A stretch of 10,222 nucleotides of DNA, from NCBI GenBank assembly GCA_020283715.1, contig JAIQCW010000011.1:1-10222 (forward strand), given 5' to 3'. This DNA comes from Cytauxzoon felis (Eukaryota; Apicomplexa; Aconoidasida; Piroplasmida; Theileriidae). Position numbers and translations under genes: made by a program. This document shows positions 5,024 to 9,598 of this stretch, one piece after another. Numbering within the stretch: position 1 is the first letter of the stretch; each line of letters begins with the position of its first letter. The notes beneath the pieces are model-generated. The model was given only the letters and a program-made list of their open reading frames with translations. It did not search any database and had not been told where the DNA came from.

Positions 5024-6535
5024 ATGACTGATAATCCCTTGTTAATCGAACGTATGAAAAACGCCTCAATATGTATGTTTATTTATAATTGATATTTATA
5101 TTTTTATTTTAGCCGATGGGATTACAGACAAATTAACTGAAGCTCAGGTTGCTACTGTAGATATATTACAAAGATTACAGGTATATATTGTTATGTCTTG
5201 TCTAATTTCATTATTTATCTCAGAAAAATCGCGATGAGTTAGAATCTGAATATAACAGAGAACTAAATGAACTCAGAGCTAAATATGATACATTGTATCA
5301 GCCTTTATATGATGAAAGATTCAAAACTCTTACCACACCATCCGGTAATGAAGTAGGCACTCCGGTTAGTCGATTTGTTTCTATAACAGTATCCACAATT
5401 ACATTGTTATCCATACGATATTTGTTAATTCATCCACCACTATTGATCTTTTGACTAGTTTACTCCCATGTATCGGGTCGTCAATCCTAAGAACTGGCCT
5501 CAAATAGAATACCTGGAAGCGATCTACGGGAGCTGGAAGGGGAAGTAAATAGAGAGGCTGACGGCAGGATGGACCTCAGGTGGAACGGCGGGTGGATGAA
5601 GAAGTTAAATATATATCCTTTCATCAGTAACTATCTAGTACATGTCGCCTTCACTCGCCATTCCACCTTGTCTTCGTCTTGCAGAGAGCTTCTCTATTTA
5701 CTTTCCCCTTCGCTTCCCTGAGATCAGCTACGGGTATGAGGTTAATTCAGTAATATTTGTATAACTTATAATTTAATAAATCCTAATTCAAATATTTAGA
5801 CTTTGCCAAGATTTTGGTTGACTGCGATGAAAAACAACAGTACTTTGAGATCAATCATTGAAATTCGCGATGAGGCCGTATTGGCATATCTGTCTGACGT
5901 AAAAGCTGAGTTTTTAGAGCCTAAAAAACAGGAGTCATTTAAAATTATAATGACATTTGATACTAATCCGTTTTTCACTAATACTACATTGACAAAACAA
6001 TATAATATGAAGGTTATTGATGGTGAAGTAGAGGCATTATTGCAGGGTACTGAGGCTACTGAGATTAATTGGCTTCCAGATAAGGATGTTACTAAGCAGA
6101 CTGTTACAAAAATTCAAAGACATAAGAGAACTAAGGAGACTCGTACAAAAACTGAGGTTGAGGTTAGTAAATTAATAATTTAATATTATATTTATAGGAT
6201 CAACCAAGTTTTTTTAGATTTTTTACTAGTCAAGATGTTCCTTCAAATGAAACATTATCACGTATGACTAAGCAAGAGGTATGTTTGTATTAAATAATTT
6301 GAATATTGATTAAATTTTAGATTGCTGAGTTGGAAATGTATGTTGAGGAAGATTATGACATAGGGATTGTAATTAGAGTATGTTTTTATTATTAAATTTT
6401 ATACATAAATAGGATAAAATAATACCTGAAGCTGTATATTGGTACCTTGGAATAGCTGAAGATGATCATATTGATGATGAAGATGATCTTGAGAGTTATG
6501 ATCAATCAGATTCAATGGTATCCGATTCAGATTAG
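5024..6535 (+). CDS. NAP1: NAP1-family nucleosome assembly protein (histone chaperone)
   Basis: Exons 5024-5072, 5113-5180, 5224-5364, 5800-6162, 6198-6278, 6321-6377 and 6413-6535, total 882 nt, 293 residues. Introns are 40, 43, 435, 35, 42 and 35 nt, all GT-AG and in phase. NAP1 proteins dimerise, bind H2A-H2B (and H3-H4) and carry histones to chromatin. Visible: dimerisation helix at about 24-75 (TEAQVATVDILQRLQ...YQPLYDER), the LPRFWLTAMKNN motif at about 88-99, the beta-sheet earmuff fold with FDTNPFF.N..LTKQY, the basic hairpin HKRTKETRTKTEVE, DQPSFFRFF, and DYDIGIVIRDKIIPEAVYWYLG, then a short acidic tail at about 268-293. It is shorter than typical yeast or animal NAP1, and the tail is modest. 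ATG 5024 is the natural start, with phase kept into exon 2. The 435-nt intron holds a GC-rich inverted repeat. NAP1 rather than SET is favoured by the basic hairpin and IIP region. Confidence 0.95.
5365..5799 (+). other. 435-nt intron 3 of NAP1, apparently enlarged by an insertion
   Basis: GTTAGT donor after GGC ACT CCG and AAATATTTAG acceptor before ACT TTG CCA, phase 0, giving TP|TLPRFW. All other introns in this gene are 35-43 nt. The excess is explained largely by the inverted repeat at about 5509-5737, which is far richer in GC than the surrounding intron. Confidence 0.88.
5509..5737. repeat. GC-rich imperfect inverted repeat with codon-aligned arms
   Basis: The left arm core 5521-5592 and the reverse complement of 5654-5725 align over 72 nt without a gap, 51 of 72 identical (71 percent), with weaker similarity on both sides. 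The spacer is 61 nt. GC is about 60 percent in the left arm and 50 percent in the right, in a region otherwise mostly A+T. In one frame both arms read as related peptides: DLRE, G, VNREA and RWNG are shared, 14 of 24 residues. The plus strand is open for 76 codons, 5491-5721. A folded transcript would form a long imperfect hairpin. It may be a MITE-like element or two inverted copies of a decayed coding repeat. Confidence 0.8.
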
Positions 6536-6675
6536 ATTGATAAATAAAAAACATATAATTTTCTTGTTTTTAATTCATAATATATGTTTGATTTTTTTAT
6601 TATTATGATGTAGTGTTTATGTCGTGGGTATTAGACATGGTGGATTACATTAATATAATATATAATTGAAAAAAA
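6536..6675 (+). other. NAP1 to proteasome beta-7 spacer
   Basis: A 140-nt gap that must hold the NAP1 3' UTR and the beta-7 5' region. AATAAA occurs at 6543-6548, 8 nt after the stop, and could act in polyadenylation, though such hexamers are frequent by chance here. A run of A precedes the beta-7 ATG at 6676. Confidence 0.35.
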
Positions 6676-7478
6676 ATGAGTGGATATGTTACAGGTGCTG
6701 CTATAATAGGTATGAAATATGATGGAGGTGTATTATTAGCGGCAGATACTAAAAGTAAGTTGAGATATATTATATATACATATATTATTATTATAGTAAG
6801 TTATGGAAGATTGGCTAAATTACATAATTATGAAAGATTACAACAAATATCTAAAAATTGCGTATTTTGTTCTACTGGTGATGTAGCTGATCATCAATAT
6901 GTTACAAAATTATTAAAAAAAACATTTGATCGTGAATTAGTATCATGTAATAATGATGAATTACATGTTAATATGGATGCTGAAATGTTACATAATTATT
7001 TATCACGAGTATTATATGCTAGAAGATCAAAATTAGATCCTATTTTATTATCTTCAATTATAATCGGTTATAAAGATGATAAATCATATTTAGGTTATTC
7101 TGATCATTATGGTACTAAATATACAGATGATTTTATTACAACTGGTTTATTTTATTAATAATCATTATATATATATTTATAGGATTTGGTAAATATTTCG
7201 CTATTGGACCATTAAGAGAAGAACATAGAAATAATATGTCTAAAGATGAAGCTACAAATTTAGCAATTAAATGTATGAAATTATTATATCTAAGAGATTG
7301 TTCTGCTCATGATAAAATACAAATTGCATATATAAATAATGATGGTGTTAATATTACTCAACCATTTACATTTGAAACTAAATGGTATGTACTTTATATA
7401 CAAATTATATTATATAGGGATTTTCAAAAATATACATTACCAACTTCTTCATTACCAATTGAAAGTTGTCAATTTTAA
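6676..7478 (+). CDS. PSMB4: 20S proteasome subunit beta-7 (PSMB4/Pre4 type)
   Basis: Exons 6676-6754, 6797-7144, 7183-7384 and 7418-7478, total 690 nt, 229 residues. Introns are 42, 38 and 33 nt. Beta-7 is a non-catalytic subunit of the inner beta rings of the 20S proteasome. Family signs after splicing: VTGAAIIGMKYDGGVLLAAD near the N-terminus, SYGRLAKL, STGDVADHQYV, the RVLYARRSKLDPI helix, GYKDDKSYLGYSDHYG, TTGFGKYFAIGPLRE, KLLYLRDCSAHDKIQIA and the C-terminal ETKWDFQKY, all in PSMB4 order. The active beta subunits lack the YARRSKLDP and TKWDF signatures, so the subtype is well supported. Introns 1 and 3 are stopless and multiples of three, so an unspliced reading would add false residues after ADTK and after TKW. 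Only about five residues precede the VTG segment, so the usual propeptide is missing or encoded by an unseen upstream exon. Confidence 0.95.
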
Positions 7479-9598
7479 TTATCAAATGAAATCTAATTTA
7501 TATTTATCTAAATTCATTATAATTTTTATATAATTCATCATTTAATCTATATAATAATCTAATATTACATGAAAATTACCCAAATATAACAAGTTAAATC
7601 GTATCTATATATAAATAATTTCATTGTCTTCTATAGTATATGTTATAAATGTAGATTATATAAATTTTATTTATATCCCCATAAATTTAGTAGTGTCGTT
7701 TCTGAAATTTAGTATACAATGCAAAAAATCGATTAAATTATAGTTTAAAGAATGATAATTGGACAAAAACATGATATATTTTGTATATATGTTATATTAT
7801 TAAATATAAAATGTGTTATTTATGAAAAAAATTATGGTGCAAATTGGCCACAATATAAATTATGGGGGCAGCAACACAACTCCACCAATGAATTTCCATT
7901 TGATATTTAAAGATTTATAATTGAATTTTTTAATAAACCCCTGTATATATTGATTAAATTACAATCTAATTAACTAATAATTGTTACGCGTATTAATTAA
8001 AATTTATTTTATAAAAAATTTACTGACATATAAACTGTATAGTTACAACATAGTTTGTTCACTACCTATAATTATATATATAATTATAAATTATAATTAA
8101 TTCATAGAATAATACAGTTATATTGTTGTAGAATATATTAACTTAGACTATTTTACGTGAAAATATTATTTTCTATTAAAATTTATTAAAAAAATAATAG
8201 TTAATACATACATGGTTACTGCATAAAGCTGATCATTAAAAGGTTAATTATCACTATATTATCTATTTCTACCTTATTATTATTATATATATTTGTTAAT
8301 TATACTGTATAAATTGATTTTTTAAAATAATATGGGATACCAAAGCGGATGTATATTTGCCAAAATATTTGCAACACTAATGTAATCGGAACATATGTTA
8401 AAGGATTTACAAGATCTACGCATATAAATCACATATATTATAACATGAAATTACTAAATTAAGCCATAATTAGTTGAACTTGTTCATTGGTTACTTATTT
8501 TCATTGATGTAAATTCAAGTGAATGCTACCTGGGCCAGTAGCAGTATAGTAGTAATCATAAAAAGTTGTAATTTTTAAAAGTGACCAATTATACTTTATA
8601 TAGTTAATTTTCACATTTTTATGGTGTTTTAAGGTATATGCGTACATAATATGCTATAATTACTTAAAAATTATATATGTGAATTCATGACATCAACTAT
8701 AAGTAGTAGGTAATATTAAATTTTCAATGTGCAAAAATTTTTAAAATATTTAATATAATAGCCAACTTGACATTTTTTTATGATCAAAAATGTCATAATA
8801 ATAAGGAATTTGCTATAATTTTAATGTTTATTACTATACTACAAGAACTTTTATAGGACATAATTCATAGCATGGGTCATTTATCAATTGTTGTTGGTAA
8901 ATATAATTACCATTTAATAATTACATTTCTGGAATATTATATTCATCCATTCTTATATATCATAATACATTGAAGATAATAATTATATTGAAATGTATTT
9001 GATATTTTAAACAAAACTTTAAGGATCCAAAGTTAATGTTGGAGTGAGCGCCGTAAAATACATTAAAATTAAAAACCATCTCTATTTATAAATCCTGGCA
9101 TAATATTTATATAAAAACATATAATATTAACTTATGTATAGTAATCGCGTAAAATAACAAAACGAAAAAATTTGATCATATATCACAAAATTACGGAGTA
9201 AATTTGGAATGAAAACAGGTAGAAAGATTGGTATGTTATATATTGCTAGAAATATCCATGTTTGTTTAACTAATTGTAATGGGATATATCAACTATTAAA
9301 AACATAAATCCGTAATGTGTCCAAATAAAATAATATAATATTTTAAACGGATATAATATTGAAACTCGTATGGAAACGTTATAATACGCCATTATATTAT
9401 AATTATCTTAATAAATATAAACACAGATGAAAGTGTTATTTTACGAAGGCATCCATTTATATTAATCGACGAAGACTGATGGGGATGCTATGTGTATTTA
9501 TATAAATAATATGGATGTTCTAACAGGTACATGATTAATCTTAACTTATTTTAAAGATTGTGATATATCTTGGTGTGTATTTTGGTTTTTTTTTCGCA
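7479..9598. other. 2.1-kb AT-rich region without a supportable gene
   Basis: Very AT-rich on both strands with frequent stops in all frames. The largest ATG-started ORF I examined is 32 codons (7822-7920, plus), with no recognisable features. Contents worth noting: a palindromic AT tract near 8067-8100 (AATTATATATATAATT), a perfect-stem hairpin at 8768-8795, and a small less AT-rich patch near 8340-8400. No tRNA, snRNA or CRISPR-like structure could be supported. The right end presumably contains the promoter of the HAD gene. Confidence 0.6.
8768..8795. repeat. 10-bp perfect inverted repeat, hairpin
   Basis: TGACATTTTT at 8768-8777 is exactly complementary to AAAAATGTCA at 8786-8795, with an 8-nt loop. 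It lies in the gene-free AT-rich stretch. It may be chance in such biased sequence, but the TGAC/GTCA ends make it better than a plain A/T palindrome. Confidence 0.5.

Follow-up and report, generated by a model that had tools for sequence, protein, structure and literature searches.

In this study, we asked why a predicted intron of NAP1 in the piroplasm Cytauxzoon felis contains a GC-rich inverted repeat whose two arms look like copies of one coding segment. The window, that is the whole stretch of DNA analysed, comprises 10,222 nucleotides (positions 1 to 10,222 of contig JAIQCW010000011.1, assembly GCA_020283715.1). In a preliminary description, it had been suggested that the arms descend from a dispersed, protein-coding repeat or mobile element of different base composition. 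We show here that this was right in outline, as the window arms belong to a dispersed, modular and GC-rich family in the C. felis nuclear genome. We consider it likely that the hairpin is a copy of a very large, selfish, MITE-like palindromic family, whose in-frame exon copies are kept while others are purged. The lineage is not one in which mobile DNA is known to be abundant.

The window copy and its predicted host intron

The host gene and the copy within it are arranged as follows:

5224 to 5364, forward strand: NAP1 exon preceding the intron (frame and splice sites judged by eye)
5365 to 5799, forward strand: predicted NAP1 host intron, 435 nt, GT..AG, with stops in three frames
5507 to 5737, no strand: atypical family copy, D+ D- with tails inside (family k-mers, nhmmer modules within 5510 to 5736, hairpin)
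5510 to 5600, forward strand: D module with head type h1, reading PGSDLRELEGEVNREADGRMDLRWNG, plus tail (nhmmer start at 5510; tail limit by eye)
5651 to 5736, reverse strand: D module with head type h2, reading PVADLREAKGKVNREA, plus tail (nhmmer 5681 to 5736; tail limit by eye)
5800 to 6162, forward strand: NAP1 exon following the intron (Pfam PF00956 NAP, E 3.4e-36)

Arm 1 (5521-5595, + strand) reads DLRELEGEVNREADGRMDLRWNGGW and arm 2 (5651-5725, - strand) reads DLREAKGKVNREALCKTKTRWNGE with a stop at its end. Realignment reproduced the gapless match over 24 codons reported previously; identity amounts to 14 of 24 positions at the residue level and 51 of 72 at the base level. The described contrast in composition was also found, the GC content being 0.60 and 0.49 in the two arms and 0.485 over 5507-5737 as against 0.264 in the whole window. 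A bias towards synonymous differences between the arms, which had been proposed as well, is not borne out: the differences are distributed 8/6/7 over the codon positions, and 5 codons differ synonymously and 10 non-synonymously. A repeat finder run with default settings over 5200-6100 returned no inverted pair, which indicates that the arms are imperfect; exact cores of the family lie at 5516-5536 (21-mer, h1) and at 5713-5734 (22-mer, h2). The copy consists of h1 followed by an inverted h2, with the module tails facing each other, and this is the reverse of the head-to-head insertion envisaged before, heads directed inwards being usual in the family. The intron has 6, 11 and 8 stops in its three frames, and the two preceding introns of NAP1 measure 40 and 43 nt. 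This copy represents an inside-out variant within an intron and is presumably excised by splicing.

Size and architecture of the family

The preliminary description had called for a search for other copies, and these are abundant. The window stretch gave at least 89 matches in its own genome, with 40 of 2845 first candidates scored; this count includes the self-match and places that were matched more than once. Three cores occur as exact copies in numbers of 1230 (h2 22-mer), 1132 (a third core) and 628 (h1 21-mer) genome-wide, with both strands represented near-equally, and reversed control cores gave 0. Along 140 kb of contig C71 we counted 64 family islands, which together cover 10.8 kb or 7.7% and have a GC content of 0.49 compared with 0.30 outside them. 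These findings agree with the suggestion that the arms derive from a repeat that is dispersed, compatible with coding and distinct in base composition. The C71 stretch contains 63 D and 27 N modules, the totals extrapolated to 8.62 Mb being about 3900 for D and 1700 for N; its density of exact cores (18 per 140 kb) is near the genome mean of 1 per 7.0 kb. In one 10-kb stretch (L029), nhmmer found no modules. The GC content of the C71 stretch (31.8%) is the same as that of the C. felis assembly of PMC3748084, whose main text uses the word 'repeat' a single time, with reference to tandem repetition in cf76. The two PCR primers for C. felis cf76 given in that paper each have one exact match in the genome analysed here, in convergent orientation on contig C114 and about 2.3 kb apart, which points to C. 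felis or something very close, and the nearest proteasome beta subunit in the database is that of Theileria equi (66%). Among the matches listed for the open-licence PMC literature, none describes elements of this kind in Cytauxzoon; one article (PMC13304581) contains both 'cytauxzoon' and 'palindrom'.

Modules were classified with nhmmer in a 240-kb sample made up of the C71 stretch (140 kb), nine 10-kb stretches and the window. The 127 D and 58 N modules of this sample form 116 clusters: 54 single D, 43 N+D+, 4 single N, 4 D-D+, 1 D+D- and 10 longer or mixed ones. The sole D+D- cluster is the window copy, and tandem runs of D were seen in few clusters only. Among complete copies, the most frequent form combines the module types N and D as an inverted repeat and can be read through in a single open frame. 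Many of the single D modules are halves of class II elements, in which an AT-rich body of about 270 nt is flanked by an inverted D (head h2) on the left and a D (head h1) on the right, with a mean pairwise identity of 71% over 21 aligned pairs. After merging, 53 elements were assigned to class I, 22 to class II and 19 to other forms, with mean spans of 247, 443 and 122 bp, respectively, and in both classes the heads are directed inwards.

The element at L017:6789-7252 is an example of class II, with the consensus arms h2 on the left and h1 on the right, and the AT-rich body was without a long open frame in the translations inspected. One class II stretch compared with Rfam gave a single match, below threshold. 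Four D-D+ copies are found within one 10-kb stretch (L031:2091-2289, 2764-2958, 6341-6555 and 7312-7531); these have a different loop type (like ..EQEFYPEE..STRKN..) and apparently form another subfamily. Element tails, for example at L012:8881-9065, consist of tiny near-palindromes strung together (GTCTGCAAGAC, CCACGGCGAGTGG, CCATGCAATGG and ACCTCAGGT), which combine freely.

Reading frame of the modules

Among modules located outside long ORFs, all 46 N modules are open in the sense frame, compared with 23 of 46 in the next best frame, whereas D modules are open in the sense frame in 89 of 111 cases and in one antisense frame in 104 of 111. Whole N-D elements outside long ORFs are open in the sense frame in 19 of 42 cases, in one antisense frame in 10 of 42, and in each of the other four frames in 0 or 1 of 42. 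From these counts, the sense frame is preferred for the whole element, yet it is not the sole open frame. The reading frame is hence a property of the family within limits, as an antisense frame is often open too. The open N-D form encodes a conserved peptide with the composite pattern PPEV..SSNYLSLKSKATPGDRG..TSSGLPVADLREAEGEVNRRADGRTTSGG. In the outer modules outside long ORFs, the tails are in frame in 24 of 34 (T1) and 30 of 44 cases (T2), while the linker is mixed (41/33/28). Among 22 ORFs of at least 120 codons that contain modules, the ten longest have them in sense orientation only; the other 12 comprise 7 antisense, 4 sense and 1 mixed.

Copies within conserved genes

Elements are inserted in frame in unrelated conserved genes. 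For an arginyl-tRNA synthetase and a GatB ORF, solved structures align on both sides of the insert, and the family assignments are the same in Pfam and NCBIfam. The arginyl-tRNA synthetase ORF aligns with PDB 4zaj_A up to query residue 287 (chain 281) and resumes at query 385 (chain 306), the final stretch being weak when taken alone (i-E 0.0045). The GatB ORF was compared with 3al0_B, where query 306 to 407 stands against chain 136 to 146 in a comparison that is bacterial only. In NEMF, the insert is located between NFACT-R and NFACT-C. Judged from its sequence, the arginyl-tRNA synthetase of T. equi is without the insert, the span of the site being 21 residues compared with 89 in C. felis, and the same anchors enclose 77, 109 and 109 residues in three Babesia arginyl-tRNA synthetases. 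The length thus varies among piroplasms, which suggests a tolerant loop at this position. A structure predicted for the arginyl-tRNA synthetase piece from five sequences was unusable (mean pLDDT 38.8). The NEMF/RQC2-like ORF at L026:5756-7675 (+) contains one N and three tandem D modules, all in frame.

A set of exon copies chosen from ORFs selects on openness, and for this reason a test based on flanks was run, in which the openness of the element was not a criterion. Coding-like flanks on both sides were found for 11 of 93 elements, with a codon model trained on long ORFs, some of them containing elements, and with cut-offs fixed after a first look under other settings; the elements without such flanks pool introns and intergenic DNA. 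Ten of the 11 are in sense orientation, in phase and free of stops, and one is antisense with stops. Among random control spans of C71, 1207 of 2800 had coding-like flanks and 1025 of these 1207 were open. Coding-like flanks on both sides are thus less frequent for elements than for random spans, and the elements that do have them keep the frame.

Taken together, the elements are modular, with parts that can be interchanged: N or an inverted D forms the left arm and D the right arm, a loop or body lies between them, and strings of short tails are found outside. The usual N-D form can stay open through both arms in a single sense frame. We propose that a copy landing in an exon in the right orientation and phase would lengthen the host protein by a hydrophilic segment of some 60-100 residues and would survive, whereas exon insertions arranged otherwise would be purged by selection, which would explain why most copies lie outside exons. 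We infer that the elements are mobile and that selection acts as a filter on the exon copies; the inserts are probably translated.

Alternative explanations

It could be argued that the copies are introner-like elements that are removed by the spliceosome, and that their coding frame results incidentally from base composition. The intronic position of the window copy would be consistent with this, as would the linkers TCCACCTGAGGTY and ACCTCAGGTGGA, which provide AG/GT in either orientation, and a candidate 3' splice site towards the end of the insert in arginyl-tRNA synthetase. However, the ends of an introner coincide with those of the intron, whereas the borders of the NAP1 intron lie about 140 nt and 60 nt beyond the ends of the window copy, the one copy for which this comparison was made. 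Furthermore, splicing requires neither sense orientation nor an open frame nor the correct phase, yet 10 of the 11 copies with coding flanks have all three, and we regard this explanation as unlikely. A still smaller chance is given to the idea that the elements are structural RNAs whose hairpins are kept as long double strands, for instance as small-RNA precursors or as processing or regulatory signals. The long imperfect double strand predicted earlier for the transcript was indeed recovered on folding (-122.6 kcal/mol for 5490-5760 against -75.3 +/- 4.6 in 200 shuffles, none of which was as low; z -10.3), and many islands have low predicted energies, in their case computed without shuffles. 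Selection on the double strand is not supported, however, since no matching between the two arms of an element was found. With the labels T6 and T6b merged with T2, the tail modules of the two arms are the same in 13 of 52 class I elements, where shuffling gives 13.4 (p 0.60), and in 9 of 25 class II elements, where it gives 6.8 (p 0.19). The arms of one element also pair no better than those of different elements (-67.6 versus -81.7 kcal/mol in 43 class I elements and -111.5 versus -114.0 kcal/mol in 22 class II elements, the arms being of unequal length). The independent assortment of tails and the pairing energies thus indicate that the hairpin itself is not apparently selected, and in the window no Rfam family reached its gathering score.

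Least probable in our opinion, and only marginally behind the RNA explanation, is that the copies are remnants of a dispersed family of protein-coding genes, or of a domain of repeat proteins, with a peptide under selection. The heads h1, h2 and h4 encode nearly identical peptides, and h1 and h4 differ 0/1/4 by codon position, which speaks for this explanation; the corresponding values are, however, 3/3/5 for h2 versus h1 and 3/3/3 for h2 versus h4. Substitutions within head groups were counted in 112 of the 127 modules, those with indels being dropped. Outside long ORFs, the h2 group has 40 synonymous, 86 non-synonymous and 7 stop changes (24% synonymous expected) and the h1 group 18, 35 and 1 (25% expected); the synonymous excess is thus small, and most copies are not apparently selected for their peptide, whereas the small h4 group (8 copies) shows a synonymous excess (14 versus 11 non-synonymous; 23% expected). 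The synonymous bias anticipated for further copies hence appears in the small h4 group, but not in the large h1 and h2 groups. In addition, the insert peptide had no homologue at E values up to 10 among 97 candidates, these being proteins of about 240-764 aa sharing exact words with it. A selfish palindromic family that is filtered in exons is the explanation we favour.

Relation to known systems

MITEs are miniature inverted-repeat transposable elements, and the C. felis elements resemble them in that they are short, have inverted terminal arms and are present in high copy number. They differ in their mosaic ends and in that many copies are open across both arms. Target-site duplications, on which the preliminary description had touched as flanking duplications, gave no signal (6 of 93 elements versus 3.2 expected, with ends that are mosaic and blurred). 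Profiles of two transposase families, DDE_3 and DDE_Tnp_4, had no match in the C. felis genome (control matches being prokaryotic), and the sole RVT_1 locus found, at L032:3-2018 (+), is a telomerase reverse transcriptase with Telomerase_RBD adjoining RVT_1.

The closest parallel is provided by the RPEs of Rickettsia, which are described as elements of about 150 bp that encode a conserved peptide and are found in frame in unrelated genes (PMC10969869), with 44 insertions in R. conorii (PMC10969869, PMC6649704). Like these, the C. felis elements are short palindromes dispersed over many unrelated loci, with a conserved peptide and in-frame copies. In contrast to RPEs as described there, the C. 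felis family is eukaryotic, its module cores number in the thousands compared with 44 insertions, its N and D arms are modular, its N-D copies are longer (mean span 247 bp) and composite forms with an AT-rich body exist. The 22-base h2 core had no exact match in bacterial and archaeal genomes or viral contigs. The C. felis element may work like an RPE, an analogy that is not meant to imply sequence kinship. On balance, we lean towards regarding the family as a eukaryotic counterpart of RPEs, that is a selfish palindrome with thousands of copies and a host-compatible peptide, which diversifies by module exchange and has segments in roughly 300 exons, a figure extrapolated to 8.62 Mb from 5 strict cases among 46 elements in the 140 kb of C71, one of the 5 being a lone D-like module.

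Two further systems share some of these features. PARCELs are repeats of 25 residues arranged in tandem in ORFs to which no function is assigned (PMC2996958); they too are coding sequences with dyad symmetry that spread within genomes, but the C. felis elements are dispersed rather than tandem and some are located within conserved enzymes. Nematomorph mitochondria have perfect inverted repeats whose arms encode conserved host residues (PMC6649704), and inverted repeats thus likewise coexist with protein-coding sequence, whereas the C. felis copies are imperfect, dispersed inserts in the main genome and not in mitochondria.

Coding palindromes that invade genes in frame have been described from Rickettsia. 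If our proposal is correct, an apparently independent apicomplexan case on a far larger scale would point to a general strategy, and it would provide many natural insertion experiments in conserved proteins. It would also give a mobile-element history to this parasite group, whose mobile elements are, to our knowledge, little described. If the inserts are translated, a repeat peptide would be common to C. felis gene models and antigen predictions. As a separate observation, a 729-aa ORF at L014:5532-7718 (-) has four FAINT-domain stretches (Pfam PF04385) and, within an acidic region, a single D-like module that is divergent.
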